Below, piece after piece: positions 15,135-45,271 of a stretch of DNA of 45,271 nt. The translations under genes and the position numbers were made by a program. This DNA comes from Aurantimonas coralicida (lineage in GTDB: Bacteria > Pseudomonadota > Alphaproteobacteria > Rhizobiales > Rhizobiaceae): contig DRFF01000139.1 in the NCBI GenBank assembly GCA_011050685.1, positions 1-45,271 on the forward strand. The letters are read 5' to 3'. Each line of letters opens with the position of its first letter. The stretch's first letter is position 1. The notes under the pieces are model-generated. The model was given only the letters and a program-made list of their open reading frames with translations, searched no databases and had not been told where the DNA came from.

Positions 15135-15195
15135 GATCGCGGCGTTCCTTTTCTGGGAGCCTTGCCTTTTCTCTGCGAGCCTTGTGGCCCCGCGC

Positions 15196-15768: not shown

Positions 15769-15961
15769 GACGCCTCCGTTCGGCGGAGATCATAGAGCAT
15801 CGGGGAACCGGCGACAGGGTGGCGGCGAAAGGCATGCGGATCGCCGGCCGGCCGACCGCGATACCCCCGCCTTGGCGGCGATCGTTGCCCGGCACGGCGA
15901 TGGGGCCGGAACCAGATGCCGCGTCATCCGTATAGCCTACGAACCGTCCTCCCATTTCGAG

Positions 15962-30310: not shown

Positions 30311-30395
30311 GCCCCTGTGGCGGAATTGGTAGACGCGCGCGACTCAAAATCGCGTTCCGCAAGGAGTGCTGGTTCGATCCCGGCCAGGGGCACCA
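30311..30395 (+). tRNA. tRNA-Leu (anticodon CAA)
   Basis: Acceptor arms GCCCCTG (30311-30317) and CAGGGGC (30385-30391) pair fully; the D arm, the anticodon stem CGCGA/TCGCG with loop CTCAAAA, a short variable arm and the TTCGATC T loop are all in place, and CCA is encoded (30393-30395). The integrase gene starts 260 bases downstream in the tRNA-to-integrase orientation usual for P4-type integrases, so the 3' end of this tRNA is the probable attachment site. No second copy of the 3' end was found in the window. Confidence 0.95.
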
Positions 30396-30398
30396 ACA

Positions 30399-30537
30399 GT
30401 TGACATTCACCCCGCCAAAGTTGACGTTTCAGGTTGTCTCATCCTGTCTCATGCCGTGCCAAAAGCTTGGCAAGCCCTTACGGGACAGGCATTGCAGGGG
30501 ACTAACCGCCTTCACGGATTTGTCTCACGCTGTCTCA
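30399..30537. promoter_or_regulatory. putative attL arm region with paired GTCTCA and GTTGAC sites
   Basis: Directly after the tRNA-Leu end there are two AGTTGAC sites (30398-30404 and 30419-30425, 21 bases apart) and two pairs of GTCTCA, each pair spaced exactly 10 bases: 30436/30446 and 30522/30532. The repeat unit is TGTCTCAYGC. Evenly spaced direct repeats beside a tRNA attachment site are typical of integrase arm-type binding sites. The function is inferred. Confidence 0.5.
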
Positions 30538-30573
30538 TACACTTTCAACCTCAATCACTGCATCTCAGGCAAA

Positions 30574-30622
30574 TGACGTAAAATTTGGCGTAACGTGGTT
30601 GTCAGCGTTACGTTTTACGTCA
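30574..30622. promoter_or_regulatory. nested palindrome upstream of the integrase gene
   Basis: Outer arms TGACGTAAAA (30574-30583) and TTTTACGTCA (30613-30622) are perfect complements; inner arms CGTAACG (30589-30595) and CGTTACG (30606-30612) are also perfect. It lies 33 bases before the integrase start and could be an operator controlling integrase expression, or a structured leader. Confidence 0.6.
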
Positions 30623-30655
30623 AATCTGATCGGGCGACGACATAACGGGTGAAAC

Positions 30656-31861: not shown

Positions 31862-31931
31862 CCCCGCCGAGGGGCGAGGTTCGATCGTGAACCCCGCCCC
31901 GGCTCAAATGGCGCACCCCCAGGCTACGCCA

Positions 31932-31981
31932 TGAGACGCTATGCAGCATCAAAGCGTCTCACGCTGTCTCATGCTGTCTCT
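31932..31981. promoter_or_regulatory. three tandem GTCTC sites upstream of alpA
   Basis: GTCTCA at 31956 and 31966 and GTCTCT at 31976 repeat every 10 bases, with an inverted TGAGAC at 31932-31937. The unit is the same TGTCTCAYGC as beside the tRNA. The array ends at the -35 box of the alpA promoter, so it may serve the AlpA regulator or integrase as a control site. Confidence 0.5.
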
Positions 31982-32009
31982 TGCCTGTCAACCAAAACCT
32001 GACTATACC
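31981..32009 (+). promoter_or_regulatory. promoter of the alpA-terminase operon
   Basis: TTGCCT (31981-31986) and TATACC (32004-32009) are separated by 17 bases. GTCAACC follows the -35 box immediately (31987-31993), within the spacer. The ATG of alpA is 25 bases after the -10 box, with AGGAG and AGGA between. Confidence 0.5.
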
Positions 32010-32034
32010 CGGTTTAGGAGAACAGGATCAGACT

Positions 32035-32268
32035 ATGAGCATTCACCCCGACGACGAAGATTTGCGCCTATTGCGGATCGATGATGTCCTGACGCTGACG
32101 ACATTCAGCCGGGCAACCCTCTATCGACGGATCAAGGACGGGAAGTTCCCGCCGCCGATTGAGGACGAGGGCACCCGCCTATGGTGCAACAGCGAGCTTC
32201 GGGAATGGAAGCGATCCAAGCTGCGCGCCCGCCATCAAATTCAACGAAACAATGACGACATCCTCTAA
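32035..32268 (+). CDS. AlpA-family regulator / excisionase-like protein
   Basis: A 77-residue MerR-like winged-helix protein. LLRIDDVLTLTTFSRATLYRRIKDGKFPPPIE and WCNSELREWKRSKLRAR are the AlpA signature. AlpA proteins activate or regulate integrase and early genes of P4-like satellites and many integrated elements; some act as excisionases. The ATG at 32035 is preferred over a TTG at 31981 that lies in the promoter. The C-terminus ends RNNDDIL, closely like the terminase small subunit gene that follows after two bases. It heads a three-gene operon. Confidence 0.88.
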   Translation: MSIHPDDEDLRLLRIDDVLTLTTFSRATLYRRIKDGKFPPPIEDEGTRLWCNSELREWKRSKLRARHQIQRNNDDIL

Positions 32269-32270
32269 CC

Positions 32271-32894
32271 ATGGCAACGCAACTAACTTTCAAGGGCGAT
32301 GGCGTGGAGTCTCCTACGGGGGGTGTCACCGTTCCATGGCTTATGAAGGCGTTCCGCATGGGGCGCGCAACGGTCGAACGCAAGCTGGCCGGCGTGGAGC
32401 CCATCGGCTACGGCAAGCACCGCACGCCGCTCTATGACCTCCCCGAGGCCGCGTCATACCTCGTCAAGCCAAAGGGCGACCTCCTCAAGCTTCTGAAAGA
32501 GATGAAGCCCGAGGACATGCCCGAGCGCCTTCGCGAAGCCTATTGGGGCGCCAAGCTCAAGCAACAGCGTTGGGAGGAGAAGGCCGGCCATCTCTGGACG
32601 ACGAGTTCCGTCATGGACGTGTTTTCGAACGTCCTGACCGAAATCCGTATCCGGTTGCAGTTGGTCCCCGATGCGGTCGAGCGCGACGCCGGCCTCGACA
32701 TGAAACAGATCATCGCCGTGCGCGCGACGATCGACGGCATTCAAGACGAAATCCACAAGGCTATCCAGGCCATCGCGGAAGGCGGCGAAACGCTGTCTCA
32801 GCTTGGGCGCGACCGGCTTGAGGTCGGCGAAGAGGAGTTGGCCGAGGATGAGGCTGCGCCCCGCCCCGCCCGCAATCACGATGACATTCTATGA
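32271..32894 (+). CDS. terminase small subunit-like protein (DUF1441/Nu1 type)
   Basis: A 207-residue protein. An N-terminal winged-helix-like part (VTVPWLMKAFRMGRATVERKLAGVEPIG) would bind DNA; AYWGAKLKQQRWEEKAGHLWTTSSVMDVFSNVLTEIRIRLQLVPD and a C-terminal acidic helix match the pattern of DUF1441/Nu1-type small terminase subunits of lambda-like phages. It would choose the packaging site and recruit the large subunit. Its stop overlaps the large subunit start (ATGA). The assignment rests on the pattern and the neighbour; confidence is moderate to good. Confidence 0.7.
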   Translation: MATQLTFKGDGVESPTGGVTVPWLMKAFRMGRATVERKLAGVEPIGYGKHRTPLYDLPEAASYLVKPKGDLLKLLKEMKPEDMPERLREAYWGAKLKQQRWEEKAGHLWTTSSVMDVFSNVLTEIRIRLQLVPDAVERDAGLDMKQIIAVRATIDGIQDEIHKAIQAIAEGGETLSQLGRDRLEVGEEELAEDEAAPRPARNHDDIL

Positions 32895-34204
32895 AGCCCT
32901 TCTCGTCGCTTGAGCAAATCCTACTGGCAACCGCAGAGGCCATCCGCCCGCCCGAGCGCCTGACCGTATCGGAAGCGGCCGAGAAGTATCGAAAGCTCAA
33001 TAATCCCGGCCAGTATATCGGCCCGTGGCGCAATTCCATGGCGCCATACCTGACCGAAATCATGGACGAGACTGGATCGCTCGATTTCACGGGTGTCGTC
33101 TTCGCCGGGCCGGCTCGCTGCGGCAAGTCCGACATCTTCTTCAACAAGCTCGGCCATTCGGCGATCTGCGATCCCGGTGACGCGATGCTTGTCCACATGA
33201 CGCAATCCACGTCCCGCGATTGGTCGCAGGGGGATTTGCGGAAGTTCTTCCGTCACACAACGGCGGTCGGGTCGCGGGTCCTTCCCGGCAAGCAAAACAT
33301 GAACGTCCATGACATTCGGTTTTTGACGATGCGGCTCCTCGTCAAGTGGCCGACGATCACCGAACTGTCAGGCAAGACGCTCCGCGATCTCTGGTTCATG
33401 GACTACGATCGGATGCCCCAGGACATCGAAGGGGAAGGACCCCCGTTCGATCTTGGGCGGAAGCGCACACAAACGGTCGGTCGCTACGGAATGACGGTGG
33501 CCGAGTCCTCGCCCGGCTTTGAAATTCTGAATACGCGCTGGTCGCCTGAGACGCCCCATGAGGCGCCGCCGACGCAAGGTATTCTCGCGCTCTATAACCG
33601 TGGCGATCGTCGGCGTTGGTATATTCGCTGTGTCGACTGCGGCAACGCCTTTGAGCCCCATTTCGATCACCTGAATTATCCCGACAGCGCCGACCACGTT
33701 GAGGCTGCCGAGATGACGACCCTCGATTGTCCGATGTGCGGCTTCTCCCATACCCATGAGCCCGCGCCAGGGCAGCCGGGGAAGCACGGTCTCAATCTCG
33801 GCGGCAAGTGGATCAAGGAAGGGCAATTATGGATGCCTGACGGCACGATCGAGGGCGTCGCCAGGAAGTCCGACATTGCATCGTTTTGGCTGCCCGGCGT
33901 TTCCGCCGCGTTCGTCGATTGGAAAACCCTCGTCCTAAAATGGCTCAAGGCCAACGAGGAGTACGATAAGTCCGACCTCGACGCCGTTGAGGCTGGCGCG
34001 GAAGGTCGACCCGCCGTCGTTACGCCAGACCCGCGCGCCGATCGCTTCGCAGATGAGGGCGTAGCGGTTCACGCCGACGCGGTAGCTCTTGAAGGTGTGG
34101 CCGTCGATCTCGACAGGTTTCCGGCTCGTCGGAGTCATTATGGGATCATCCTTCCATGGCGGCGGCGCGGGCAGTCGTTGCGGTTGCAAACATGCGTCTT
34201 TTGA
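32891..34204 (+). pseudogene. terminase large subunit (GpA type), 3'-truncated
   Basis: A lambda GpA-like packaging ATPase of which about 361 codons are genuine. Walker A GPARCGKS is at residues 73-80, Walker B LWFMDYD at 167-173, and the coupling motif TVAESSPG at 202-209; a zinc-ribbon-like set Cys 247, 250, 280 and 283 follows. The match runs to KANEEYDKS (ending at 33973). After that the frame reads 76 residues of antisense to a leftward gene, and the nuclease domain is absent; full GpA proteins are usually over 550 residues. It may still make an ATPase, but packaging nuclease activity is lost. Confidence 0.85.
33935..34138 (-). CDS. small leftward gene with truncated, chimeric 3' end
   Basis: A 67-residue frame beginning MTPTSRKPVEIDGHTFKSYR and continuing through RYALICEAIGARVWR and FRASLNGVEVG. 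The last 11 residues come from antisense of the terminase gene after the junction at about 33973, so the natural C-terminus is missing. The ATG overlaps the TAA stop of the upstream DUF7768-like gene (TAATG), which shows it was the last gene of that operon. I do not recognise the family. Confidence 0.55.
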   Translation of the reverse strand: MTPTSRKPVEIDGHTFKSYRVGVNRYALICEAIGARVWRNDGGSTFRASLNGVEVGLIVLLVGLEPF

Positions 34205-35121
34205 TGCGTGCCGCAAGTGTCGCAGGCGTTGAGGATGGCCCGAAAGGTCGCCGTCTTGAACTTGGGCTCGCGCATCCGCATCCGCTCAAGCCATTCCTCT
34301 GTCTCCTCGTCGGGGAGCTTGGGCGCACTCACCCGATTTGGCGCCTTAATCTCCTTCGCCATCGCGGCAAATGTTTCCCCCTTCTGACGAACCGTCGCGG
34401 CGATTTCGGAATCGGTAGGAAACGACGACCCTGGCGACAGGATCACGGGGAACTCGTTGGACTTGACGATCCCTCCCGAGTGCAATGGTATCCCCAGGTC
34501 GGCGAGGGTCTTCACCATCTTCGCAACGAGCGCCCTCCCGGTGATCGTCACTTCATGCGTCGATTTGAGCCGGATGCGGTCCATCACGACTACGGGCAGG
34601 CGGCGAACTTCCACCCGGCGACCCGCGCGCTTGGCCCGCTCGATCCCGAGGCGCATCCCTTCCGAGATGCCCAGGTCCTCATAGACAACCGTCGCATCGG
34701 CCTTCTCACCCCAGGCAAGACCCGCGTCGATCCCCGCCGACTGCTCGTCGGGATTGTCGTCGTCGAGCACGTCCGGTTGGGTGTAGAGGAGATGGCTGGC
34801 GTAAGGTGCCTCCTCGCGTTCAAGGCAATCGCGCATCGCGGCGCGGGCGTAGCGGGTGTTGAGTTCGACGTTGCCCGCATAGGGGCTTTCGATGATGACG
34901 AGTCTCATGACCTTGCCGATTGGCAGGTTATAGTCACCGGCATCGTGCGTCACGACGTAATCTGACGGAATATTGCTGAATGTTTTATGGTCGATCTTCT
35001 CGCCGCAGCGCTGGCAATAGTGCTGTCGCCCGTCGCTAAAGACGTATGACCGGTGAGACTTCACACCTGGGCGATGGTAGAGCCCCATGCAGGGGTGCTT
35101 ATTCTCGCCAACGTCATTCAT
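34138..35121 (-). CDS. DUF7768-like protein with zinc-binding ends
   Basis: A 327-residue protein in three parts. Residues 1-45 hold a Cys pair in YCQRCGEK. Residues about 70-190, with VIIESPYAGNVELNTRYARAAM and SAGIDAGLAWGEKADATVVYEDLGISEGM, match phage proteins of the DUF7768/nucleoside deoxyribosyltransferase-like class. The last 30 residues contain CDTCGTHQKTHVCNRNDC, a second likely zinc site. Such enzymes act on nucleosides or nucleotides in some phages; here the function is unknown. It overlaps both neighbours, so it belongs to the leftward operon that starts at the winged-helix gene. Confidence 0.65.
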   Translation of the reverse strand: MNDVGENKHPCMGLYHRPGVKSHRSYVFSDGRQHYCQRCGEKIDHKTFSNIPSDYVVTHDAGDYNLPIGKVMRLVIIESPYAGNVELNTRYARAAMRDCLEREEAPYASHLLYTQPDVLDDDNPDEQSAGIDAGLAWGEKADATVVYEDLGISEGMRLGIERAKRAGRRVEVRRLPVVVMDRIRLKSTHEVTITGRALVAKMVKTLADLGIPLHSGGIVKSNEFPVILSPGSSFPTDSEIAATVRQKGETFAAMAKEIKAPNRVSAPKLPDEETEEWLERMRMREPKFKTATFRAILNACDTCGTHQKTHVCNRNDCPRRRHGRMIP

Positions 35122-35341
35122 GATGGGGAACTCCTAGTATCTGCTTGAATCGGGCCTTGGCCTCGGGGGTGAGGACCGGATCGAGGTCGACCGCCTCAAG
35201 GCACCGCTTGGCCGTCATGTCGATCGCCGCGTTGACCGCCGTGGCCGTCATGCCGTTGTCGGCGAGACAGGCCAGTTCCATCCGCTGCGCTTGCGAGACG
35301 AACAGATCGCGGTCGATCGTGGTCGTCGGCTTATATCCCAT
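35114..35341 (-). CDS. small hypothetical protein
   Basis: A 75-residue protein with no family I recognise. The sequence TAVNAAIDMTAKRCLEAVDLDPVLTPEAKARFKQILG is helical and charged. Its start overlaps the previous stop by 11 bases (ATGGGATATAA) and its end overlaps the next gene by 8, so the three are translationally coupled. Confidence 0.65.
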   Translation of the reverse strand: MGYKPTTTIDRDLFVSQAQRMELACLADNGMTATAVNAAIDMTAKRCLEAVDLDPVLTPEAKARFKQILGVPHHE

Positions 35342-35534
35342 CGACCACCCGATAGACCGGACGCTTGTTGACGAGGATGCGTTCGACCTTCCCGGCCGCG
35401 ATGAGTTCGATCATCGCCCGCGTGATCGTTGCCAGCGTGCTTTGGTCGCGGCGCTCGATGAGCGGTATGATTTCCTGAATGGAGCGAGGCCCGTCCGCCA
35501 GCGCTGCCAGCACTTCTTTTTCAGCTTCGGTCAA
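35331..35534 (-). CDS. small winged-helix regulator
   Basis: A 67-residue protein starting with TTG at 35534, chosen because CAGGAGAACTCAT precedes it; upstream ATG frames lack a ribosome site and would run through a palindromic operator. TEAEKEVLAALADGPRSIQEIIPLIERRDQSTLATITRAMIELIAAGKVERI is a complete winged helix-turn-helix, like minimal MarR or replication/partition regulators. It is the first gene of the leftward operon and the AGTCAAC palindrome upstream is its likely autoregulatory site. Confidence 0.65.
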   Translation of the reverse strand: MTEAEKEVLAALADGPRSIQEIIPLIERRDQSTLATITRAMIELIAAGKVERILVNKRPVYRVVDGI

Positions 35535-35582
35535 ATGAGTTCTCCTGGTTCTCGCGGGCACACTAGATCGCTCTGCGGGTCT

Positions 35583-35601
35583 AGTCAACATTAAGTTGAC
35601 T
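35583..35601. promoter_or_regulatory. 19-base operator-like palindrome
   Basis: AGTCAAC (35583-35589) and GTTGACT (35595-35601) are perfect arms around ATTAA. It is 49 bases upstream of the winged-helix gene start. The half site GTCAAC also occurs in the alpA promoter and in leaders of the ArdA cassette. Confidence 0.6.
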
Positions 35602-35630
35602 GTCGCTTCACACTCCTCGCTTGGCACTTG

Positions 35631-35672
35631 GCGAATCCGTTTGAGCGAATCCGTTTGGGCAAATCCGTTTGG
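35631..35672. repeat. three tandem 14-base repeats
   Basis: GCGAATCCGTTTGA, GCGAATCCGTTTGG and GCAAATCCGTTTGG follow one another without gap in the control region of the leftward operon. They could be regulator or integrase binding sites. No coding function is evident. Confidence 0.8.
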
Positions 35673-36015
35673 GCGGCTCCCGCGTACCTGGCGCATCGGA
35701 TGGGGTCGGTATCTCCGATGTTATCTCGCCGTGGGATGCAGACTGACGACGCAACCCCTATTCCCCAGGCGTCGGAGAATGACTCGGCACGGCTCAGTAT
35801 ATGCAAAATTTGCACGAACTGCATCTTAACCAAATATCAGATAATCAACCGACATACAGTTAAACGAGACACCATGCCGTCTCATGAGGTCTCATCGAAA
35901 CAAGGGATGCCGCGCCTCGGCCGGTTCATTGTCGCGGCATGGTTCCGTTGACGGCTGGATCGGCGGGCCTGTAAAACGCGAGGATCGCAACACTGACAGA
36001 GAAGATCGCCCCCCA
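35673..36015. promoter_or_regulatory. divergent control region, with palindromes and GTCTCA pair
   Basis: No gene is seen in this AT-richer stretch. TGCAAA-A-TTTGCA at 35802-35814 is a palindrome that overlaps a second, TGCA-CGAAC-TGCA. GTCTCA occurs at 35879 and 35889, again 10 bases apart, with an inverted GAGAC at 35866-35870. It separates the leftward operon from the rightward small membrane protein gene. Confidence 0.5.
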
Positions 36016-36270
36016 ATGAACGAGATACAGATCATCAACGATGTCGTCTTCTGGACGATCGGCTTCCTCAATATCCTGACCTACTTCCTGGCCGGGGATC
36101 GGTCGTCGGCGACGTGGTATGTCGGGACCGTCACGCAATCATCGTGGATCGGCTGGCAGCTAATCACGGGCAACACCACCTTCCTCTGGATTTCCATTGC
36201 CCTTCTCTCAGTCAACGTGATCAACCTCATCAAGTGGCGCCGAGCCGGCCGCCTGCTTTCCCCCGTCTGA
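36016..36270 (+). CDS. small membrane protein, holin-like
   Basis: An 84-residue protein with two or three hydrophobic segments (about residues 6-25 with VVFWTIGFLNILTYFLAG, 30-45 and 50-70 with TTFLWISIALLSVNVINLI) and a basic end KWRRAGR. The size and layout are like a small holin or nucleoside-transporter fragment, but no family is recognised. The ATG at 36016 is chosen as the last start before the hydrophobic part; no strong ribosome site is visible. A clear terminator follows at 36320. Confidence 0.6.
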   Translation: MNEIQIINDVVFWTIGFLNILTYFLAGDRSSATWYVGTVTQSSWIGWQLITGNTTFLWISIALLSVNVINLIKWRRAGRLLSPV

Positions 36271-36319
36271 TCTCGCATTCTCATCGCTAAATGGATCGGG
36301 GATTCCCGGTTGGCGTCGT

Positions 36320-36345
36320 GGCCTCGGAATTGTTCCGGGGCCTTT
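36320..36345 (+). terminator. Rho-independent terminator
   Basis: GGCCTCGGAA and TTCCGGGGCC form a 10-pair stem (one G-T pair) with a TTG loop, followed by TTT. It ends transcription of the small membrane protein gene. Confidence 0.75.
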
Positions 36346-36703
36346 CGCTTTTCAGGGCGGCGGTTGCGGCCGGCCAGGGCGCGGATTTTGCGCGGGCTCG
36401 AAATTTTGGAACGGGCTGACTTTTTGAAGTAGCGGCGCGCCGCCCGAAAAATCCGAGGACTCACCCCTCGATCGCGGCGTACTGCATTGCGGAGCCGCGT
36501 TAACCTTAACAAAACGCCAAGGCGACCCCTCCCCGGACCCTGGCCGAATGGTCTTGTCTGACGCCATAGGCTGCCCAGGGACGCGCGTTCGCGGGGTGTG
36601 GGGCTAGGTAGGTGGCGGGAAAGCGCGCGGCGCGTCCCTATGGGCACGCAAGGCCGCGTTAAGGTCGGTTGCCTATGGTCGCGGCGTTCCAAGGGAGTCC
36701 CGT
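36346..36703. other. gene-free spacer with inverted repeat
   Basis: No gene is supported. AGGGACGCGC (36577-36586) and GCGCGTCCCT (36630-36639) are perfect 10-base inverted arms 43 bases apart, shortly upstream of the next gene. GCCGCGTTAA occurs twice (near 36493 and 36651). The promoter of 36704-36973 probably lies here, but I cannot define it. Confidence 0.4.
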
Positions 36704-36973
36704 ATGCGCGCCATCATTCTTGCCCTGGCGATCTTCGCCGCGTCGCCGGCTTATGCTGTGACGGCTGATCAGTGCGCCACCATGCGCGAGAGCGTCACCG
36801 AGCTACTGACGTTCGCAAAAGCCGTCGCACTGGCGCACGCGGCGACAATTCGACGGGGAAACGTTCTAGGTATTGAGATTCGCCAGTTCGGCCGCGCCCT
36901 GGCAACCCTAGACACAAAAAAGCACGCGGCTCTTGTCCGCGTGCTCAATGATGTTTGTCCGAAGGGGCGTTAG
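36704..36973 (+). CDS. small secreted protein
   Basis: An 89-residue protein with a clear signal peptide, MRAIILALAIFAASPAYA, and a cleavage site after AYA. The mature part of about 71 residues has two cysteines (in DQCATM and NDVCPK) that could form a disulfide. AAGGGAG stands well placed before the ATG. No family is recognised. Its stop overlaps the stop of the convergent 41-codon gene. Confidence 0.65.
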   Translation: MRAIILALAIFAASPAYAVTADQCATMRESVTELLTFAKAVALAHAATIRRGNVLGIEIRQFGRALATLDTKKHAALVRVLNDVCPKGR

Positions 36974-37095
36974 AGGATCGCGGACCCTACCGCGATGATT
37001 GCCAAGCTGATTCCGATAGGGACGAATGACTCGGACGCCATCGCCTCAGCTATGGCAGCAATTGCCATGACGACGACGAGTCCGCCCCTAAACAT
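36970..37095 (-). CDS. 41-residue membrane peptide
   Basis: A short frame, MFRGGLVVVMAIAAIAEAM followed by SFVPIGISLAIIAVGSAIL, with two hydrophobic halves split by ASES. Its ATG overlaps the stop of the preceding leftward gene (ATGTTTAG), an arrangement that suggests translational coupling. No ribosome site other than the upstream gene's translation is needed. The family is unknown. Confidence 0.5.
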   Translation of the reverse strand: MFRGGLVVVMAIAAIAEAMASESFVPIGISLAIIAVGSAIL

Positions 37096-37585
37096 TGCAC
37101 GCCTTTAGCTTACCCTCGGCAGCGAGTTCCGCGCGCCATACCGCAAACCGCGCGGCCCGGTCTGCGGCGGTTCCGTTCTTCGCGACCTGTTGCGCCTCGC
37201 GCTTAGGGCAGAAAGCCGTTCCATCCCTTGCCATTATCAGGCCGCGCGCAATGACTGCCAAAAGAGCGTCAAAACCTTCTGCAACAGCCGTGGATTTGTG
37301 GAAATGAACCGGGTTGACGTTGCCGAAGCGGTCCGAAAGACAGGCGTCGGAATCAAGCGCCATGTGCCATGCGACGACGTGAATGTCCGGTTGGACTGAC
37401 CGCCCGTCAAAATCGATCGTGACAGACAGGCCGCGCGCCCCTCGAATAGAAACAAACACTTCCCTCGGCGAGATAGAGCTAGAGCCTTCCGGTTCAATTG
37501 TGACTTGCGCGCCGAACGATTCCGCCGAGGCGGCTAGGCGAGACGCCATAACGGCGCGGTCGGATTTCCGTTTCTCAGTTAACAT
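37088..37585 (-). CDS. hypothetical protein of the ArdA cassette
   Basis: A 165-residue protein starting MLTEKRKSDRAVMASRLAA, with AAGGAG well placed before the ATG; the frame is open further upstream but that part is basic and not needed. The middle, VFVSIRGARGLSVTIDFDGR and HVVAWHMALDSDACLSDRFGNVNPVHFHKS, looks like a compact alpha/beta domain. The family is unknown to me. The leader has GTCAACC and AAAGGAG like other genes of the cassette. Confidence 0.65.
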   Translation of the reverse strand: MLTEKRKSDRAVMASRLAASAESFGAQVTIEPEGSSSISPREVFVSIRGARGLSVTIDFDGRSVQPDIHVVAWHMALDSDACLSDRFGNVNPVHFHKSTAVAEGFDALLAVIARGLIMARDGTAFCPKREAQQVAKNGTAADRAARFAVWRAELAAEGKLKACNV

Positions 37586-37611
37586 TGTCAAGACTCCTTT
37601 CGGTTGACTAT

Positions 37612-38205
37612 TTAGGCAAAGATGGACTCGTGACGGGAACGCCGGGCCGACTCTTCGCGGGCTTTCAAGTGACGTTCCCGCTGCCACTGGCGATAGGTGA
37701 AAACGTCCAAGATCGGCGCGCAACCGCCCGCCCCGTTTGCAACGGATTCGTCTGCGGACTCTTCTGCGGCCTGCCATATGGCCTCATGATAGGCTTCCGA
37801 TTTGCTCTTGCGGATTCCCAGGTCGGCAACGGTATCAATGACGAACGTTTCGCAGATAAACCGGGGGTCGTATTCGTCACGGTAAGCCCCGTAGTCGCCC
37901 CGCGTGCCGCCCGACTCCAGTTCGAGTCCATCGGGATCGCCGTCATATTCCCAGGCTTCATTCGGGACTCCGACGAATTCGTTTTTCAGCCAAACGCCGT
38001 AAGCGGATGGCGTGAAGCTGCAAATATGCGTCGCCTCACGATGGCGAATAAGCTTGATTTCAAAGCTCGCTTCAATCCAGCTATAGGCATCGCCAGTGTC
38101 GACGGTTCCCGCGTCGATTGCCGCGCAATTCGCGTCCTCGTCAAACCGTCCGAAGCATCCCCGCATCATGGGGCTTGCGATAATCAAGAACTTTTCTTTT
38201 GCCAT
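37612..38205 (-). CDS. acidic hypothetical protein of the ArdA cassette
   Basis: A 197-residue protein, acidic through most of its length (FDEDANCAAIDAGTVDTGD, EWEYDGDPDGLELESGG-like stretches) and basic in the last 30 residues. CGAGGAGTCAGACA precedes the ATG. I do not recognise the family. The acidity recalls DNA-mimic proteins such as the neighbouring ArdA, but that is only an impression. Confidence 0.65.
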   Translation of the reverse strand: MAKEKFLIIASPMMRGCFGRFDEDANCAAIDAGTVDTGDAYSWIEASFEIKLIRHREATHICSFTPSAYGVWLKNEFVGVPNEAWEYDGDPDGLELESGGTRGDYGAYRDEYDPRFICETFVIDTVADLGIRKSKSEAYHEAIWQAAEESADESVANGAGGCAPILDVFTYRQWQRERHLKAREESARRSRHESIFA

Positions 38206-38229
38206 TGTCTGACTCCTCGAAAGTTAGTT

Positions 38230-39069
38230 TCAGCCCCGACCTTCGTTAAACGCGACCATAAGAGCGGACGGGATCGAGTCCGCCAGTTCGTCGCGTTCGT
38301 TCCGAAGATCGTGAATGTTGGAAAGGCAAGCGCGCACCTTGTCATGAATGAAGCCGCAAGCCTTGCGCCATTCGTCGCCGTCAAGCGGGACGCCAAAGCG
38401 AGTCAGGCTCTTGCGGATACCCTTGCGCGCCGTGAGAGCGTCGCGGATTTCGTTCCGCTGCTCGGTTATCTGCAAATCCAGATCGGCCGCGCGGCTTCCC
38501 GCCTGCCATGCGGTTTGCCAGTCGCGTTCATCTTCGGCCGCGTGTTGCGCCATCGAGTCCGCCATCATGGCAGCGTCGCGCGCCGCTTCGCTCTTGCGCG
38601 GGTTATCGTTCCAATCCCAATAGGCGCGCCATCCGTTGGACGCGGGAATGTGTCGCGTCGCCGGCTCTTCGAAGATCGTTGTCAGGTCAAGAGTCGGTCC
38701 CGCGTCGGTTCCGCCAAACTGATAGCCGCCGACGAAACGCGACGCGCCCTTGCGGCCCGGAAGCTGATAAACGACGCCACGGCAACGCCCCGTGTCATCC
38801 TTGGAGGTTTCGCCGTCTGGCGTGGTGAGCCATCCGGTATGACCTAGCGTCGCGATCTCATCAGCGTGTCCGACGAGCCGCAGGCCGGCAGCGTCGCTAT
38901 TCAGAATGTTTGCGTCGCCGTTGTCATGCCATGTGACAGCCGGCCAGATTTCCGAACCGGGATAGCGTGCCGTGCCGTTCGCAACGTCTTCCCGTGCCAG
39001 TTCAATTGCCCGATGCGCGCGAAGCTTGAAAGCGCGATGGTAGGCGAATGCGGTTTTCAAGTTTTCCAT
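38230..39069 (-). CDS. hypothetical protein of the ArdA cassette
   Basis: A protein of 279 residues. The ATG at 39069 (MENLKTAFAYHRAFKLRAHRA) gives better spacing to AAAAAGGGA than the ATG at 39075 and aligns with the GACAATG starts of neighbouring genes; the latter overlaps the stop of the upstream small gene. The middle has YQFGGTDAGPTLDLTTIF; residues 150-275 are helical and probably coiled-coil (AADLDLQITEQRNEIRDAL). I do not recognise the family. Confidence 0.65.
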   Translation of the reverse strand: MENLKTAFAYHRAFKLRAHRAIELAREDVANGTARYPGSEIWPAVTWHDNGDANILNSDAAGLRLVGHADEIATLGHTGWLTTPDGETSKDDTGRCRGVVYQLPGRKGASRFVGGYQFGGTDAGPTLDLTTIFEEPATRHIPASNGWRAYWDWNDNPRKSEAARDAAMMADSMAQHAAEDERDWQTAWQAGSRAADLDLQITEQRNEIRDALTARKGIRKSLTRFGVPLDGDEWRKACGFIHDKVRACLSNIHDLRNERDELADSIPSALMVAFNEGRG

Positions 39070-39071
39070 TG

Positions 39072-39203
39072 TCATCGTCCCTTTTTGGTTGACGGTTTAG
39101 ACGGGATATAGACGAGCTTGCCGCCATTCCAGACGCGCGAGGCGTCACGTTCTTCGCGGATCAGGATCGCAAGGGCGAGGCGGTTTCCTTTGATGTTATT
39201 CAT
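39072..39203 (-). CDS. 43-residue basic protein
   Basis: MNNIKGNRLALAILIREERD followed by WNGGKLVYIPSKPSTKKGR. GGCAGGACA precedes the ATG. The stop overlaps the ATG at 39075 (ATGA), which supports that the frame is translated. The protein is basic and of unknown function; it could be a nucleic-acid-binding peptide. Confidence 0.5.
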   Translation of the reverse strand: MNNIKGNRLALAILIREERDASRVWNGGKLVYIPSKPSTKKGR

Positions 39204-39213
39204 TGTCCTGCCC

Positions 39214-39354
39214 TCAGATTGAAAGATATGCGGCGACGGCGAAAACGAACCCGCCGACTGATAGGACGCAACCCAAAAGCCGGATAAGCTCTAGGAAGAT
39301 CGAGTCCCCGGTTGCGGTGCGGCGCGGTGCGATTGGCAAATCAAGATCAGACAT
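39214..39354 (-). CDS. 46-residue single-TM protein
   Basis: MSDLDLPIAPRRTATGDSIF followed by a membrane helix LIRLLGCVLSVGGFVFAVAAYLSI. A strong ribosome site ACAAGGAGTCAC precedes the ATG. Function unknown. It is part of the leftward cassette, between ArdA and the 43-residue gene. Confidence 0.55.
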   Translation of the reverse strand: MSDLDLPIAPRRTATGDSIFLELIRLLGCVLSVGGFVFAVAAYLSI

Positions 39355-39411
39355 GACGTGACTCCTTGTTCGTGTCTAAAATCAACCTAACCTTGACTCG
39401 TTAAGCGCGAG

Positions 39412-40086
39412 TTAACGCGCGTGCCAAAGATAGAGGCTTCCGTCTTTTTCGACGTGATTAAACTCGCCGCTTAGCCGCAGATCGCGCCCATAGGCTTCAA
39501 AGTCGAAATACCTGGCGAGTTCGTCGGGAACGTCGGACAACGTACCGCAGTCGGCAATGAAGCTTTCCGCATATGCGGTCCAACTTTCGTGCTCCCCGGC
39601 ATAATCGTCTTGAAGCGCGCTTTCCGCTTCGGACTCGTCGGTTATGTCCGCGATCTTTCCAACGTCTTCTAAGTATTCCAGCGCAACGGCTATCGGGATT
39701 CCAACAGTCTCGGCAGCGTTGACGATCATGACTCGCTTCGCGACCTCATCAAGGCCGGCATATTCGCCAAGATCGCCGAGTCCTTCGTGATCGTGGATCG
39801 CCCATTCTTCGGCCGACCTGAAAGCCGCGCCGTCCTTCGTCATGTAGTCGACGCACTCAGGGCATTCGTATTCCACGGGTCCGCCTCCATAGGGCAGCGT
39901 GACAGTCGCGGTTTTGTCGCAGTCCTCGCACTTGAACTTTTGCCTAAAGACATTCGGAAAGCGGGACGCGGCGAGCATTTCGTTGATCTCGCGATACATG
40001 GCCGATTGATCTTCCGAAGCATCGATCCATCGGCCATGAAGGACACCGTTATTGTAGCTGGCGAGACATGCGGCATAGATACGCAT
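39412..40086 (-). CDS. ardA: antirestriction protein ArdA with zinc-ribbon insert
   Basis: A 224-residue protein with the ArdA pattern: MRIYAACLASYNNGVLHGRW at the start, EEWAIHDHEGLGD in the middle and ESFIADC followed by LARYFDFEAYGRDL at the end. ArdA is an elongated acidic dimer that mimics B-form DNA and inhibits type I restriction enzymes. Between residues 50 and 82 there is an insert with C53-C56 and C75-C78 (CEDC and CPEC), a likely zinc ribbon not present in classical ArdA. The leader, with GTCAACC and AAGGAAAC, is nearly the same as that of the next upstream gene. Antirestriction genes are usual in conjugative and phage-derived elements. Confidence 0.85.
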   Translation of the reverse strand: MRIYAACLASYNNGVLHGRWIDASEDQSAMYREINEMLAASRFPNVFRQKFKCEDCDKTATVTLPYGGGPVEYECPECVDYMTKDGAAFRSAEEWAIHDHEGLGDLGEYAGLDEVAKRVMIVNAAETVGIPIAVALEYLEDVGKIADITDESEAESALQDDYAGEHESWTAYAESFIADCGTLSDVPDELARYFDFEAYGRDLRLSGEFNHVEKDGSLYLWHAR

Positions 40087-40091
40087 AAGGG

Positions 40092-40122
40092 CGTTTCCTT
40101 GTCATAGGTCGGAAAGGTTGAC
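40092..40122 (-). repeat. cassette leader repeat, copy 1
   Basis: A 31-base leader just before ardA, including GTCAACC and ATGACAAGGAAACG (as read on the minus strand), matching copy 2 at 28 of 31 positions. It contains the ribosome site. Confidence 0.7.
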
Positions 40123-40123
40123 G

Positions 40124-40324
40124 TTAAGCCGTGGCACCTAGCACAAGTGCCTTATGGCGCGCGTTAAAAAGCCATTCGGGAACTGGAAAGCCTTCCCGTT
40201 TCCGTTGGTCGATTTGCCGTTGATATCCGTTGTAAAGGTCGACGAGCGGATTCGTCATTCTCTGCCCGGTATAAGTGACGTACCCGTAAGGCATAGTGTC
40301 GTCTAAGTTCATATCGGCGCGCAT
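40124..40324 (-). CDS. small hypothetical protein, first gene of the ArdA cassette
   Basis: A 66-residue protein: MRADMNLDDTMPYGYVTYTG, then MTNPLVDLYNGYQRQIDQRKREGFPVPEWLFNARHKALVLG. AAGGAAACGGCA precedes the ATG. The frame is open further upstream but ATG 40324 has the good ribosome site. No family is recognised. It is the first gene of the leftward cassette, which runs to about 36970. Confidence 0.6.
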   Translation of the reverse strand: MRADMNLDDTMPYGYVTYTGQRMTNPLVDLYNGYQRQIDQRKREGFPVPEWLFNARHKALVLGATA

Positions 40325-40327
40325 TGC

Positions 40328-40358
40328 CGTTTCCTTGTCATGGTTCGGAAGGGTTGAC
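40328..40358 (-). repeat. cassette leader repeat, copy 2
   Basis: The leader of the 66-residue gene; 28 of 31 bases match the ardA leader (40092-40122). GTCAACC also recurs before the genes starting at 37585 and 39069, followed there by AAAGGAG-like ribosome sites. Confidence 0.7.
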
Positions 40359-40424
40359 GGGGCGAATAGAGTCGTCCCGTCGCTATTGACGCATGGCGCT
40401 AAATCGGAGAGATAACGCCGCGTG

Positions 40425-40499
<75 letters not shown>

Positions 40500-40545
40500 T
40501 CCAAATCCCTGCACAGCAAGGCTTCCGAGCCCCAAGCACTCCCGT

Positions 40546-40612
40546 TTCCCCCACGGTTCAAACCTGAACAGGTGCGGAACGTCCCCCAAAAGCTGGGGGA
40601 AAACTGGGGGAA
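40546..40612. promoter_or_regulatory. TGGGGGAA repeats downstream of tRNA-Thr
   Basis: TTCCCCCA (40546-40553), GTCCCCCA (40581-40588), and TGGGGGAA at 40594-40601 and 40605-40612, the last two 11 bases apart. They differ from the GTCTCA units at the tRNA-Leu. By position they could be arm sites of another integrase; the centre also forms a TCCCCC/GGGGGA hairpin. 40613-40790 holds an imperfect hairpin near 40670-40695 and no gene I can support. Confidence 0.4.
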
Positions 40613-40790
40613 TCCGTTCGCGGACTGTTCTCCCGTCGATCCGCCGCCGGACCCCGGAAACGCGAAAGCCGCTCCGATTGGTCCTCGGAACGGCTCGCAG
40701 AATGAAAAGCGCTGTGGCGGTGCTTTCAACTCAAAATACTACAGCACCGCGCGCGCTCTGACAATTCCCAGCCCGGAAAAACCCGACCGA

Positions 40791-40859
40791 ATGGCGCACG
40801 TAGTGCGTTGCGGCGAACGGCTCTTTGCGGTCGGTTACCACGTCGGAGGTGCCCTATGA
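40791..40859 (+). CDS. possible 22-residue leader peptide
   Basis: MAHVVRCGERLFAVGYHVGG and two more residues, ending in a stop that overlaps the ATG of the following gene (ATGA). There is no clear ribosome site before its ATG. Translation is therefore only suggested by the overlap; the GGAGGT for the next gene lies inside it. Confidence 0.25.
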   Translation: MAHVVRCGERLFAVGYHVGGAL

Positions 40860-41449
40860 CCGGCACCGTCGAAGTTATGGCGGCACGCGCCAAGCTCTAT
40901 CGTAGGGCTATGCCGTCGCGGGCGTCGATCGATTACGTACGCGACAACGGCCTCGATAGTTGGACAATTGCCGCGCACGCGGGTTGCTTCACCGTCCTGA
41001 AGATCAACGTCCTGCCGGGGAACCGGTGGGACTTCGTCGAGGACGACAGCGAAGTGGCTGTCCCGGTGGCGATCGTCGAAGCCTTCGGCCGCGACGGCGA
41101 GACCGTCCTGGACCTCGTAGCGTGGCCGCTGGACCATCCCTACCGGGTGCTGACGATGTTCGGCCGGGCCGACATGCTCGGCCTCGTCAACGTCTATTCG
41201 GCCGCGTCCTACACCTTCGGAACGCCGCTCCAGATGCACCGGACGCCGCTCGGATGGTGGCGTGCAGGATGCCGTGGCGCGGTCGTTCTCGATCCCGTCT
41301 CGGCCGCCCGACATCTCCTCGACGCGCCGGGCCGGATCGCTGGGCAAGACCGGGAGCACTCGCAGGAACTCGCCGATCTCGTCGGCGGGCTCTTCGATCG
41401 CTCGCGCTTTGTCGCTTCTGCAGCTTCTCATCTCAAGGTGGCGGCATGA
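40856..41449 (+). CDS. hypothetical protein preceding the VapE-like gene
   Basis: A 197-residue protein. GGAGGT (40845-40850) precedes the ATG. The sequence has VPVAIVEAFGRDGETVLDLVAWPL, HPYRVLTMFGRADMLGLVNV and HRTPLGWWRAGCRGAVVLDP, a compact alpha/beta pattern often seen, as far as I recall, in alphaproteobacterial prophages next to primase or VirE genes. Its stop overlaps the start of the VapE-like gene (ATGA), so the two probably work together in replication. No function is known. Confidence 0.7.
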   Translation: MTGTVEVMAARAKLYRRAMPSRASIDYVRDNGLDSWTIAAHAGCFTVLKINVLPGNRWDFVEDDSEVAVPVAIVEAFGRDGETVLDLVAWPLDHPYRVLTMFGRADMLGLVNVYSAASYTFGTPLQMHRTPLGWWRAGCRGAVVLDPVSAARHLLDAPGRIAGQDREHSQELADLVGGLFDRSRFVASAASHLKVAA

Positions 41450-42696
41450 GCGCCCTGGCCGAAGACTATCGTCCGATCGACAGCTTCCCGCGCGATCGCG
41501 AGGACGCCAGCGACCCGGATTGGACGAGGCGGCTGATTTGCACAGCGAACGGATTCCCGAAGCCGCTTCTGGCAAACGTCCTGACGGCGCTGCGATCGGC
41601 GCCCGAATGGGCGGGTGTCCTTGCTCACGACGAGTTCGGTATGTCGACCATGATGCGCGTCGTGGCACCGTGGGACCGCGCGCACGGTTTCAAACCTCGT
41701 CCCTGGACTTCGCGAGACGATCTCTTGACGACCGAATGGATGCAGCATCACGGCATCCCGATATCCGTGGAGATCGTTCAACAGGCTATTGAGGCTGCGG
41801 CGGCCGAGAATGCCTTCCATTCCGTCCGCGATTATCTGGACGGGCTCCGGTGGGATCGAACATCCCGCGTCGAAACATGGCTGACGCGTTATCTCGGAGT
41901 AGAGACGACAGACTACACCCGCGCAGTGGGAAAGAAGTTTCTCATCTCGGCTGTCGCTAGGGCTTTCCGGCCTGGGATCAAAGTCGACACGATGCTGATC
42001 TTCGAGGGAGGGCAGGGCGCCGGCAAGTCACGCGCCGTGGCGACCCTCGGCGGAGCATTCTATTCCGACGAAATCGGCGATCTCGGCTCGAAGGACGCCG
42101 CCATGCTGGCGGGCGCCGCTTGGATAATCGAAATGTCCGAACTCGACGCGATGTCGAAATCGGAGGCAACGCGGACGAAAGCGTTTCTCTCGCGAACGGC
42201 GGACATGTACCGGCCACCCTACGGGAAGCGGGTTATCAACGCTCCTCGTCATTGCGTCTTCGTCGGCACGACCAACGGCGACGGCTACCTGAAGGACGAA
42301 ACCGGCGGTCGGCGCTTCTGGCCCGTGACGGTCGGCAAGATCGACATCGCCGCATTGGAGGCCGATCGCGATCAGCTTTGGGCTGAAGCCTTGTGCATCT
42401 ATCGCGCCGGGCATTCCTGGTGGCTGGACAAGCAAGAGCTGATCGACGCCGCGCAAGCCGAACAGTCGGCTCGGTATGCCGGCGATCCCTGGGATGACGA
42501 CGTTCGCCAGTTCATCGCCACCCGCACGGATGTTTCCGCCCGCGAGGTCATGGCCGAATGCCTCTTCATCGATATCGCGAAGAGATCTCGGCAGGACGAG
42601 ATGCGGGTTTCGAAGATCCTCAAGACGCTGGGCTTCGAGCGATATCAGCGGCGAGAGAACGGAAAGCAGACGTGGAGGTATCGTCGCCGAGAATAG
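41446..42696 (+). CDS. VapE/VirE-type P-loop protein (replication helicase-like)
   Basis: A 416-residue member of the virulence-associated E family. Residues 1-125 carry a small N-terminal domain; the superfamily 3-like ATPase follows: Walker A GGQGAGKS at 188-195, then EIGDLGSKDAAMLAGAAWIIEMSEL, FLSRTADMYRPPYGKRV and CVFVGTTNGDGYLKDETGGRRFWPVTV, all family hallmarks. The C-terminal 70 residues are a winged helix ending FERYQRRENGKQTWRY. VapE-like proteins take the primase/helicase role in phages and satellites. Directly after the stop lies the repeat array that may be its origin. The ATG overlaps the previous stop. Confidence 0.9.
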   Translation: MSALAEDYRPIDSFPRDREDASDPDWTRRLICTANGFPKPLLANVLTALRSAPEWAGVLAHDEFGMSTMMRVVAPWDRAHGFKPRPWTSRDDLLTTEWMQHHGIPISVEIVQQAIEAAAAENAFHSVRDYLDGLRWDRTSRVETWLTRYLGVETTDYTRAVGKKFLISAVARAFRPGIKVDTMLIFEGGQGAGKSRAVATLGGAFYSDEIGDLGSKDAAMLAGAAWIIEMSELDAMSKSEATRTKAFLSRTADMYRPPYGKRVINAPRHCVFVGTTNGDGYLKDETGGRRFWPVTVGKIDIAALEADRDQLWAEALCIYRAGHSWWLDKQELIDAAQAEQSARYAGDPWDDDVRQFIATRTDVSAREVMAECLFIDIAKRSRQDEMRVSKILKTLGFERYQRRENGKQTWRYRRRE

Positions 42697-42705
42697 CTTT
42701 CCGCC

Positions 42706-42938
42706 TGTCACCAACCACTATCGCCTGTCACCGACCGGAGGTTGGTGACAACTCGACGTGTCACCGACCTAGGTTGGTGACACTTGCGTTTTGCAACTAA
42801 TAAAACGGCAGCAATTTCAACGCTGTCACCATGTCACCAACCTAACCAACCTATCTGAGAATTAGTAGAGAATGGCTCAAAAGGGGGTGTTTACGCTCTG
42901 GGGAAAGTTTGGTGACGAGGTTGGTGACATGGTGACAG
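42706..42938. repeat. TGTCACCRACC iteron array, candidate replication origin
   Basis: Full units TGTCACC(A/G)ACC lie at 42706, 42726, 42759 and 42832 (forward) and 42740, 42772 and 42919 (reverse); shorter ones are at 42824, 42909 and 42931. 42726/42740 and 42759/42772 form back-to-back palindromes with 3- and 2-base centres. CTGTCACCATGTCACCAACC (42823-42842) and its exact reverse complement at 42919-42938 flank 76 bases containing an AT-richer CTATCTGAGAATTAGTAG. The gene-free interval 42697-43001 is thus a dense symmetric binding array right after the VapE-like gene, the place where satellites and many plasmids have origins. Function is inferred. Confidence 0.75.
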
Positions 42939-43001
42939 CCGAAGGCGTCGCTTCACTTGCCACAACTTGCTTAATCCCCATGCGTCACGGTCGGCAGCAT
43001 A

Positions 43002-44216
43002 ATGCCGGCTATGTTCGGATTTCTGCGCAAGAGCGTTCCTGTCGAGAAGAAGGAGGGCATCAGCTCGCCTTCCGATTGGCTTCTCAGCCTGTTCGGCGCG
43101 ATGCCAGCCGCCGCCGGCGTATCCGTCACGCCTCAGACCGCCATGCGCTGCACTCCGGTTCGGGCCGCAGTCCAGACCATCGCGGAGTCGATCGGCCAGC
43201 TTCCCTTCCATGTTTATCGTCGCGGGCCGGATCGGTCGAAGGAGCGAGACAGCGAGCATCCGGTCGCCAAGCTTCTGAACGGCGAGGCGAACGAATGGAC
43301 CGCCTCTTCCGACTTTCAGGAACAACTAACCCGTGACGCGCTCCTATGGGGCAATGGCTACGGCTTCATCAATCGGATTGAAGGCCGCCCGCAGGAGCTT
43401 CTTCGGCTTCAGCCGGACACCGTGTCGGTCGACGCCGACGAGACCACCGGCGAGCCGCGATACAAGATCACGTCCGGTTTCGACGTCGGTCGCCAGATCG
43501 CTCGGCGCGACATTCTCCATATCAAGGCGCCGTCGCTGAACGGCATCGTCGGAGACAGTCCGGTCGTCCAGGCGAAGGAGGCCATCGCTTCGATTCTGGC
43601 GATGGAGGAACACTGCGCTCGCCTCTTCGGCAATGGCGCTCGCCCATCCGGCGTGATCGAGATGCCGAACAATCTCTCGGAAGAGGGTCTGAAGCGAATG
43701 CGCACCGGATGGGAAGCCGTCCACGGCGGCGCCCATAAATCCGGCAAGACGGCGCTCCTCTGGGATGGCGCCAAATTCGTCCCGCTCACCTTCTCTTCGG
43801 TCGACGCGCAGTTCTTGGAGCTTCGCCGCTTCGCTATCGACGAGATCGCCCGCGTCTTTCGCGTGCCGCCGCACATGCTTTTCGAGATGGGCCGCGCGAC
43901 CTGGGGCAATGCCGAGGAGATGGGCGCCACCTTCGTCACCTACACGCTGCAACGTTGGTTGCGGGCATGGCAGGGCGAGGTTCGCCTGAAGCTCTTCGCC
44001 GAGGACGAGCGCGACACATTCTTCGCCGAGTTCCTGGTCGACGATCTCCTCAGGGCGGACATCAGCGCTCGCGCTGTCGCCTATTCCTCGCTGATCTCCT
44101 CTCGCGTTCTGAATCCGAACGAGGTCCGGGCGATGGAAAACCGGCCGCCATACGAAGGCGGCGAGGCCTTCGCCAATCCGAATATCACCACGACTGTTGC
44201 GGAGCCCGCGCAATGA
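43002..44216 (+). CDS. HK97-type phage portal protein
   Basis: A 404-residue portal protein (HK97 family): TPVRAAVQTIAESIGQLPF, LTRDALLWGNGYGFI, LLRLQPDTVSVD, RRDILHIKAPSLNG, and IARVFRVPPHMLFEMGRATWGNAEEMG are the classical signatures. Twelve copies would form the ring through which DNA enters the head. ATG 43002 and 43011 are both possible; neither has a strong ribosome site. Upstream is the iteron region and not the usual terminase. The stop overlaps the protease start (ATGA). Confidence 0.95.
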   Translation: MPAMFGFLRKSVPVEKKEGISSPSDWLLSLFGAMPAAAGVSVTPQTAMRCTPVRAAVQTIAESIGQLPFHVYRRGPDRSKERDSEHPVAKLLNGEANEWTASSDFQEQLTRDALLWGNGYGFINRIEGRPQELLRLQPDTVSVDADETTGEPRYKITSGFDVGRQIARRDILHIKAPSLNGIVGDSPVVQAKEAIASILAMEEHCARLFGNGARPSGVIEMPNNLSEEGLKRMRTGWEAVHGGAHKSGKTALLWDGAKFVPLTFSSVDAQFLELRRFAIDEIARVFRVPPHMLFEMGRATWGNAEEMGATFVTYTLQRWLRAWQGEVRLKLFAEDERDTFFAEFLVDDLLRADISARAVAYSSLISSRVLNPNEVRAMENRPPYEGGEAFANPNITTTVAEPAQ

Positions 44217-44746
44217 AGGAAGACAAGCTTCAGCACCCGGCTCTGATCGAGGTCAAGGCCAGTCTGTCGGCGGCCGATGACGGCGCCGTCGAAGGGCTTG
44301 CCTGGCCGTTCGGCACACCCGACCGCGTCGGAGACATGATCGAGAAAGGCGCCTTCTCAGGATCGGCCGTCCCGATCCCCATGCTCTTCGGTCACAACCC
44401 GAACGATCCTGTCGGCGTCTGGGAAGCCGTCGAGGAAACGAGCGAAGGCCTCCGGGTGAAGGGCCGGCTTCTGGTCGCTGAGGTCGGCCGTGCCCGCGAA
44501 GTTCAGGCCATGGTGAAGAGCGGCGCCGTGCGCGGTCTGTCGATCGGCTTCATCACGAAAAAGGCCAGCGCCCGGCGCGGCGGCGGCCGGACCATCACGT
44601 CTCTTGAACTTGCCGAAATTTCACTCGTCACCATCCCCATGCACCCGAAGGCGGGTCTCAGGGGAACAAAGGCCGGAGCGGACGCCATCGCGCTCGCCGA
44701 GGCCATCAACCGGGCCGCCAGCGCCCTCCGTTCCTCAAGGGGTTAG
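44213..44746 (+). CDS. HK97-family prohead protease
   Basis: A 177-residue S63-type serine protease that cleaves scaffold parts of the capsid protein during head maturation. EVKASLSAADDGAVEGLAWPFG and LFGHNP (His 61), AVRGLSIGF (Ser 110) and LELAEISLVTIPMHP (Glu near 137) give the catalytic set. Typical size; overlaps the portal stop, 4 bases before the capsid gene. Confidence 0.93.
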   Translation: MKEDKLQHPALIEVKASLSAADDGAVEGLAWPFGTPDRVGDMIEKGAFSGSAVPIPMLFGHNPNDPVGVWEAVEETSEGLRVKGRLLVAEVGRAREVQAMVKSGAVRGLSIGFITKKASARRGGGRTITSLELAEISLVTIPMHPKAGLRGTKAGADAIALAEAINRAASALRSSRG

Positions 44747-44750
44747 AACC

Positions 44751-45271
44751 ATGGAACAACTGAAGCAGTCCGCGCTGATGCCCGGCGCGATCGAACTTAA
44801 GGGCGATGAAGACGGTGACGATCCGACCGCGATCGTCACGAAGGCTCTCGACGAGCTGAAGGGCTCGGTAGACGAGCGCATAAAGGCGATCGAAGAGAAA
44901 TCCGGCGACGCCAGCAAGATCACCGACCGCCTGGACAAGCTCGAATTCCGCCTCAATCGTCCCGGCACCGGCGGCGACAGGAAGGACGGGCCGAACGTCG
45001 AACAGAAGGCTTTCGTCGGCTTCATCCGACGCGGCGCCGATGGCATCCCGGACGAAGACCGCAAGGCGCTTCGCGTCGCCGATTCCCAGGCCGGCGGCTA
45101 TCTCGCACCGGAAGCCTTTGAGACTGAAATCCTGAAGGAACTCGTTGAAATCTCGCCGATTCGATCGGCGGCGACGGTTCGCCAGACCTCTTCGGCATCC
45201 GTGGTCCAGCCGAAGCGCACCGGGCGCATTACGGCGAAGTGGGTCGGCGAGACGGAAGCCCGCCCCGGCAC
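44751..45271 (+). CDS. HK97-type major capsid protein (5' part)
   Basis: The first 173 residues of an HK97-fold capsid protein; the gene continues beyond the window. The first 85 residues are a helical, acidic delta (scaffold) region with VTKALDELKGSVDERIKAIE; the mature part begins around FVGFIRRG and contains SQAGGYLAPEAFETEILKEL and SPIRSAATV, which are diagnostic. Co-transcribed with portal and protease. Confidence 0.93.
   Translation, partial: MEQLKQSALMPGAIELKGDEDGDDPTAIVTKALDELKGSVDERIKAIEEKSGDASKITDRLDKLEFRLNRPGTGGDRKDGPNVEQKAFVGFIRRGADGIPDEDRKALRVADSQAGGYLAPEAFETEILKELVEISPIRSAATVRQTSSASVVQPKRTGRITAKWVGETEARPG

Follow-up and report, generated by a model that had tools for sequence, protein, structure and literature searches.

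The window, that is, the whole stretch of 45,271 nucleotides analysed here, is a complete contig (C139) of Aurantimonas coralicida that ends inside a capsid gene, and the sequence runs on into contig C106. The junction is bridged by a 37,559-base IMG/VR contig, which is 100% identical to the window over 13,237 bases and 99.9% identical to C106 over 19,559 bases. As it possibly originates from the same material, it checks the assembly rather than the evolution of the region. Across the junction lies an integrated element of about 16.8 kb, a putative phage satellite (hereafter the satellite), which is bounded by a tRNA-Thr gene and by a partial copy of this gene that is identical at 50 of 52 positions (Table 1).

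Table 1. Features of the satellite and of its iteron array (positions in the window unless C106 is named).
Feature	Position	Strand	Remark
tRNA-Thr (GGT), left attachment site	40425-40499	+	52-bp repeat at C106:12037-12088
ORF197	40856-41449	+	overlaps vapE by 4 bases (ATGA)
VapE-family AAA+ initiator helicase, 416 aa	41446-42696	+	modelled C-terminal winged helix, residues 350-414
Outer left iteron set	42706-42782		42706+, 42726+, 42740-, 42759+, 42772-; two palindromic pairs
Inner left arm	42822-42843	+	half-site 42824, iteron 42832-42842
Central 76 bp, candidate melting region	42843-42918	.	55% AT
Inner right arm	42907-42939	-	degenerate iteron 42907-42917, iteron 42919-42929, half-site 42931
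HK97-type portal protein	43002-44216	+	
Prohead protease (S78)	44213-44746	+	
Major capsid protein	44751-45271, cut by contig end	+	frame continues on C106 to 697
Integrase	C106:10969-12009		beside right att

On C106 the capsid gene is followed, in this order, by HNH, two connectors, TerS, TerL, cargo and the integrase. The satellite therefore has its own capsid genes (capsid, protease, portal and connectors), its own packaging genes (TerS, TerL and HNH) and an integrase with a 52-bp attachment repeat. Among the satellite ORFs scanned against PHROGs, mostly those of about 90 aa or more and without C106:7891-8217, none matched a tail family. A search for an AlpA-type regulator gave a weak MerR-like match only (C106:10064-10597). 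The cargo between TerL and the integrase (locus L030 on C106, 5142-7977, minus strand) encodes a RhuM family protein, which is the PADLOC candidate PDC-S05, an unknown protein and an HSDR_N-like endonuclease, and is possibly a defence or interference module.

The satellite is nested in a second integrated element (window 30311-45271 and C106 1-24513). This outer element has an integrase gene (30656-31861) adjoining a tRNA-Leu gene, and an 18-base repeat of the tRNA-Leu end lies at C106:24496-24513. It carries a gpA-type terminase pair, a DNA polymerase and a Prim-Pol, and among the ORFs scanned no head or tail gene was found besides the terminase pair. The tRNA-Thr of the satellite (window 40400-40499, some upstream bases included) is 97% like another tRNA-Thr of the genome (G000:C166:10040-10114), which suggests a captured host tRNA gene carried by the outer element. 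An ArdA-type antirestriction gene is located just outside the left attachment site (39412-40086, minus strand).

The earlier note had described, behind vapE, ten copies of TGTCACCRACC or its core, two palindromic pairs, a perfect 20-base inverted repeat and an AT-richer centre of 76 bases. All four were recovered. The core GTCACC/GGTGAC occurs ten times in 42697-43001, and the first iteron starts 10 bases past the vapE stop. The exact 11-mer TGTCACCRACC occurs seven times (four on the plus and three on the minus strand), all within 42706-42929, and the copy in the inner right arm that makes the eighth has two mismatches. Elsewhere in the window GTCACC occurs at most twice per 305-base stretch (mean 0.28, 50-base steps), and its maximum across 2000 dinucleotide shuffles of 42697-43001 was four. 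The palindromic pairs are formed by the sites at 42726/42740 and 42759/42772. The inverted repeat that brackets the array centre is slightly longer than described, with 22 nt in each perfect copy (42822-42843 / 42918-42939). The 76-base centre framed by the 11-mer arms is 55% AT, against 38% in vapE, and seven core sites lie to the left of this AT-richer centre and three to the right. Counted over the whole assembly (4.86 Mb, 202 contigs), there are 14 copies of the 11-mer, of which seven are in the array and seven are singletons on seven other contigs. No second exact-match array of the 11-mer was therefore found in this assembly; the earlier note had named repeats spread throughout the host genome as refuting its reading.

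The mirror-image layout claimed for the array holds for the inner arms, where it is given by the perfect 22-bp repeat, and fails for the array as a whole. The nine 9-mer sites of the window form 2 mirror pairs versus 1.9 under the null (p = 0.83 and 0.87); the five outer left core sites are without right-hand partners, and core sites are absent beyond 42936. A mirror layout of the entire array was therefore rejected (p = 0.83).

It could be argued that the palindromic pairs are transcription terminators, as the stretch 42758-42783 plus its T-rich tail scores as a terminator. However, three terminator-like sites were found in 40400-43100 versus 2.9 expected from shuffles, and this explanation leaves eight other core sites and the 22-bp repeat unaccounted for. 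Termination was rejected as the main function of the array and is extremely improbable in that role; one palindromic pair may have a dual use as iterons and terminator.

VapE matches PF05272 (E = 1.1e-79), and its best solved sequence match is PDB 7PDS (E = 1.4e-52). The structure model of VapE, built from 56 aligned sequences, had a mean pLDDT of 91.1, and the modelled residues 350-414 comprise three helices and two strands, a fold that we read as a winged helix. The six best Foldseek matches of this model were chains of PriRep1 with dsDNA (TM 0.76-0.81), and the next matches were NrS-1 and D5-type viral helicases (TM < 0.5). PriRep1 (7PDS), which we take to be of staphylococcal origin, is thus the top solved match of VapE in both sequence and structure, although the two share 27% identity in the structural alignment. 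In the available text of PMC7581432, SaPI Rep is described to use its C-terminal domain for recognising downstream iterons, and seems to do so as a pair of hexamers. A second VapE relative is encoded in the same genome (G000:C101:2576-3763, L021); it is 40% identical, has an internal stop and is without a clear array.

We surveyed VapE loci drawn from the best 80 of 592 matches in viral contigs, the best 80 of 560 in genomes and earlier searches. L019 and L020 were excluded before counting as weak VapE relatives. Among the 182 loci, 173 had enough downstream sequence (L014, L034, L053, L061, L130, L134, L154, L155 and L162 were left out), and these gave 87 representatives at 80% identity. At least seven iterons within -100 to +500 of the VapE stop were found at 56 of the 173 loci, and in control windows upstream of or inside the gene at 7 of 173. 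For the representatives, 42/87 were above all 20 shuffles, 32 of them with at least seven sites, and control windows reached at least seven at 2/87. At offsets of -150 and 0 relative to the VapE stop, the fraction of 400-bp windows with at least seven iterons was 0.32-0.34; it was 0.00-0.05 at all other offsets from -3000 to +3000 (87 loci). No array beating all 20 shuffles was found within -100 to +500 of the stop for the remaining 45/87 representatives. The earlier note had proposed to look in relatives for arrays beside VapE/VirE genes; in this survey arrays peak at the VapE stop, although about half of the representatives are without an adjacent one above shuffles.

Fifteen loci without an adjacent array were scanned whole; four stayed below seven iterons in every 400-bp window, and 11 had a window with at least that number, located about 1-4.5 kb downstream. 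Because maxima of 7-9 iterons were also seen in 20-kb loci chosen by their portal gene, only the six distant loci with 10-11 sites are persuasive (L124, L125, L138, L173, L039 and L136; 1.1-4.5 kb downstream). At L124, L125, L128, L138, L173 and L039, where VapE is about 46% identical to that of the window, a TCCCAACCT array is located 1.8-4.5 kb downstream rather than beside the gene.

The nearest VapE relative among the matches listed (L113, 58% identity) keeps the array in the same position with GTCACC-type iterons and a similar layout; a lack of such conservation is what the earlier note had named as refuting its reading. The 35 representatives with at least seven sites near the stop have element-specific iterons, many akin to TGTCCCA or TGTCACC, and arrays behind VapE also occur in Marinobacter phage PS3 (L026) and in the plasmids pKNA06 (L023) and pGO128 (L024). 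A cumulative GC skew minimum lies near the array on pKNA06 (24.7 of 25.8 kb analysed) and is absent near the array on pGO128; GC skew is not counted in favour of an origin. At L181 and L169, where a VapE relative is accompanied by the same head and packaging genes as in the satellite, there were only four inverted sites, a count not above shuffles. Relatives of the portal were found in 314 of 395 genomes and are too common to define a family.

ORF197 gave no Pfam match, and its longer reading (40808-41449) gave no PHROG match; its structure model, from two sequences, had a pLDDT of 31.6. No recognisable primase was found in the satellite. Relatives of ORF197 are present at 2 of the 182 VapE loci surveyed and at 2 of the 35 array-bearing loci, one of which is the window's own record. 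By Pfam, the relatives precede different helicase types, namely VapE, DUF3987 (L261 and L266) and AAA_25 RepA-like (L262 and L265), and at L241 and L263 the neighbour is a non-VapE helicase by sequence reading alone. At L265 the AAA_25 gene has a C-terminal HTH and is followed by TGTCCCA-type repeats. Given its rarity at VapE loci and its other helicase neighbours, ORF197 was dismissed as an obligatory partner of the arrays.

We also analysed the geometry of the 35 arrays. Altogether 218 of 364 sites were in mirror pairs versus about 140-145 expected; 14/35 arrays were individually mirrored at p < 0.05, and 21/35, the window among them, were not. The median core gap was 88 bp, and the core was more AT-rich than the gene in 34/35. 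As a control we used a stretch of CFT073 with an integrase, a primase-family gene and a PerC gene, which we took to be EcCICFT073 although the record does not name it. The region behind its primase-helicase gene holds 11 sites, which are ordered ++-+++|--+-- and form 5 mirror pairs (p = 0.0016); the same order recurs in L056 and L057. The rep-ori segment of EcCICFT073 supported plasmid replication in E. coli according to the available part of PMC6092414.

Iteron similarity among the 35 arrays was correlated with the similarity of the VapE C-terminus (ρ = 0.35) and of the ATPase core (ρ = 0.26, p = 0.002), both unadjusted. Given the ATPase core, the C-terminus kept a partial ρ of 0.24 (Mantel p = 0.001), whereas the ATPase core given the C-terminus explained no further iteron similarity (partial ρ = 0.001); partial Mantel tests may overstate significance among relatives, as shared ancestry is not fully removed. 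By subregion, the partial ρ was 0.22 for the recognition helix (p = 0.001), 0.22 for the wing (p = 0.005) and 0.09 for the first two helices (p = 0.096). The N-terminal part showed a weak adjusted correlation (0.15, p = 0.029).

These results bear on two other functions. The array might be a packaging (cos/pac) site for the terminase of the satellite, which owns TerS, TerL and HNH and whose head genes start right after the array, the portal beginning 62 bases beyond it. Array-bearing relatives are also often phage-like: pKNA06, which has a VapE array, also encodes TerL- and head-protease-like proteins (15087-17353), and L113 carries a virion-protein-like gene. pKNA06, which may be a phage-plasmid or satellite, was accordingly dropped as a head-gene-free control. 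Since both records are phage-like, they alone do not exclude a packaging role, and we slightly raised our estimate for it and slightly lowered that for an origin. However, arrays follow vapE whatever packaging genes come next. In the 16.4 kb of L113 examined, only ORF197 and VapE of the satellite's proteins have relatives, and those of its portal and terminase were not found. The 4.3 kb plasmid pGO128 has an array (7 sites versus at most 5 in shuffles) and no head gene among its five listed features. In addition, the iteron sequence tracks the VapE C-terminus. We thus rejected packaging as the main function and regard it as very unlikely. A role as operator, bound by a repressor or activator of vapE or the head genes, is slightly less probable again and was likewise rejected. 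The location of the array between the vapE and portal genes would be suitable, and repeated operators are common. However, a promoter scan of 42697-43001, which covered the sigma-70 type only, gave no match, ten sites in 233 bp with an AT-rich gap fit initiator origins better, and the iterons follow the winged helix of the initiator.

We therefore consider it highly likely that the array serves as replication origin for a capsid-encoding phage satellite of cfPICI type, a role in which it would very probably be bound by VapE. The candidate origin proposed in the earlier note agrees with the main tests: conservation in L113, the peak at the VapE stop, and the attachment repeats, integrase and capsid and packaging set with no tail family together support it. 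In the proposed mechanism, the satellite would excise and VapE would then be made; its C-terminal winged helix would bind the TGTCACC-type iterons, and two VapE ring helicases, face to face on the inner arms, would melt the AT-richer centre. Forks would leave in both directions with primers supplied by ORF197, the host or a helper, and the terminase of the satellite would package the copies into capsids that the satellite likewise encodes, with tails taken from a helper.

More broadly, VapE-family initiators may serve one broad class of dyad origins in satellites, phages, phage-like and small plasmids, in which an exchangeable winged helix and the iterons co-evolve as lock and key and two head-to-head rings act on a shared AT-rich core of about 90 bp. 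We give this generalisation an even chance; under it, the origin in the window would be a half-symmetric variant.

PICI-type origins are already known, and the array is most likely a further example of this type. Newer are the host group, the combination of features, the wide link of VapE and arrays across phages and plasmids, and the helix-iteron correlation. The discussion in PMC6092414, in its available text, knew no other such bacterial replicon, and no paper joining VapE and iteron was found in the open-licence literature searched. The analysis places in an alphaproteobacterium a satellite that encodes its own capsid, has a putative origin of its own and seems to be autonomous. VapE-linked origins can often be found by sequence alone in phage-like elements, and the correlation suggests that origin specificity might be predictable from the protein sequence.

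According to the available parts of PMC6092414 and PMC7581432, PICI and SaPI origins resemble the array in lying directly 3' of the initiator gene, in two iteron sets around an AT-richer region, and in a helicase initiator with a C-terminal domain, here modelled as DNA-binding. The window differs in its iteron sequence, its one-sided outer set and its alphaproteobacterial host; the L113 genome, read as Antarcticirhabdus, belongs to the same family as this host. The CFT073 element encodes a protein of D5_N type whereas the satellite has VapE, and by our own observation of mirror placement the CFT073 region is mirrored (p = 0.0016) and the array as a whole is not (p = 0.83).

Helper-embedded PICIs, as the available text of PMC10111431 describes them, likewise lie within another integrated phage-like element. 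Their site is a late gene, whereas that of the satellite is a tRNA-Thr gene, and its outer element has, among the ORFs scanned, no head or tail gene except the terminase pair. From cfPICIs, as defined in the available parts of PMC10690885 and PMC11389934, the satellite differs in carrying the integrase behind the cargo, at its far end, in the lack of a clear AlpA and in its lodging inside a second prophage-like element. It shares with them the portal, protease, capsid, connectors, HNH, TerS, TerL, integrase and own replication gene, and the absence of tail families among the ORFs scanned; this gene set agrees with the list of capsid-forming PICI genes in the available text of PMC10690885.
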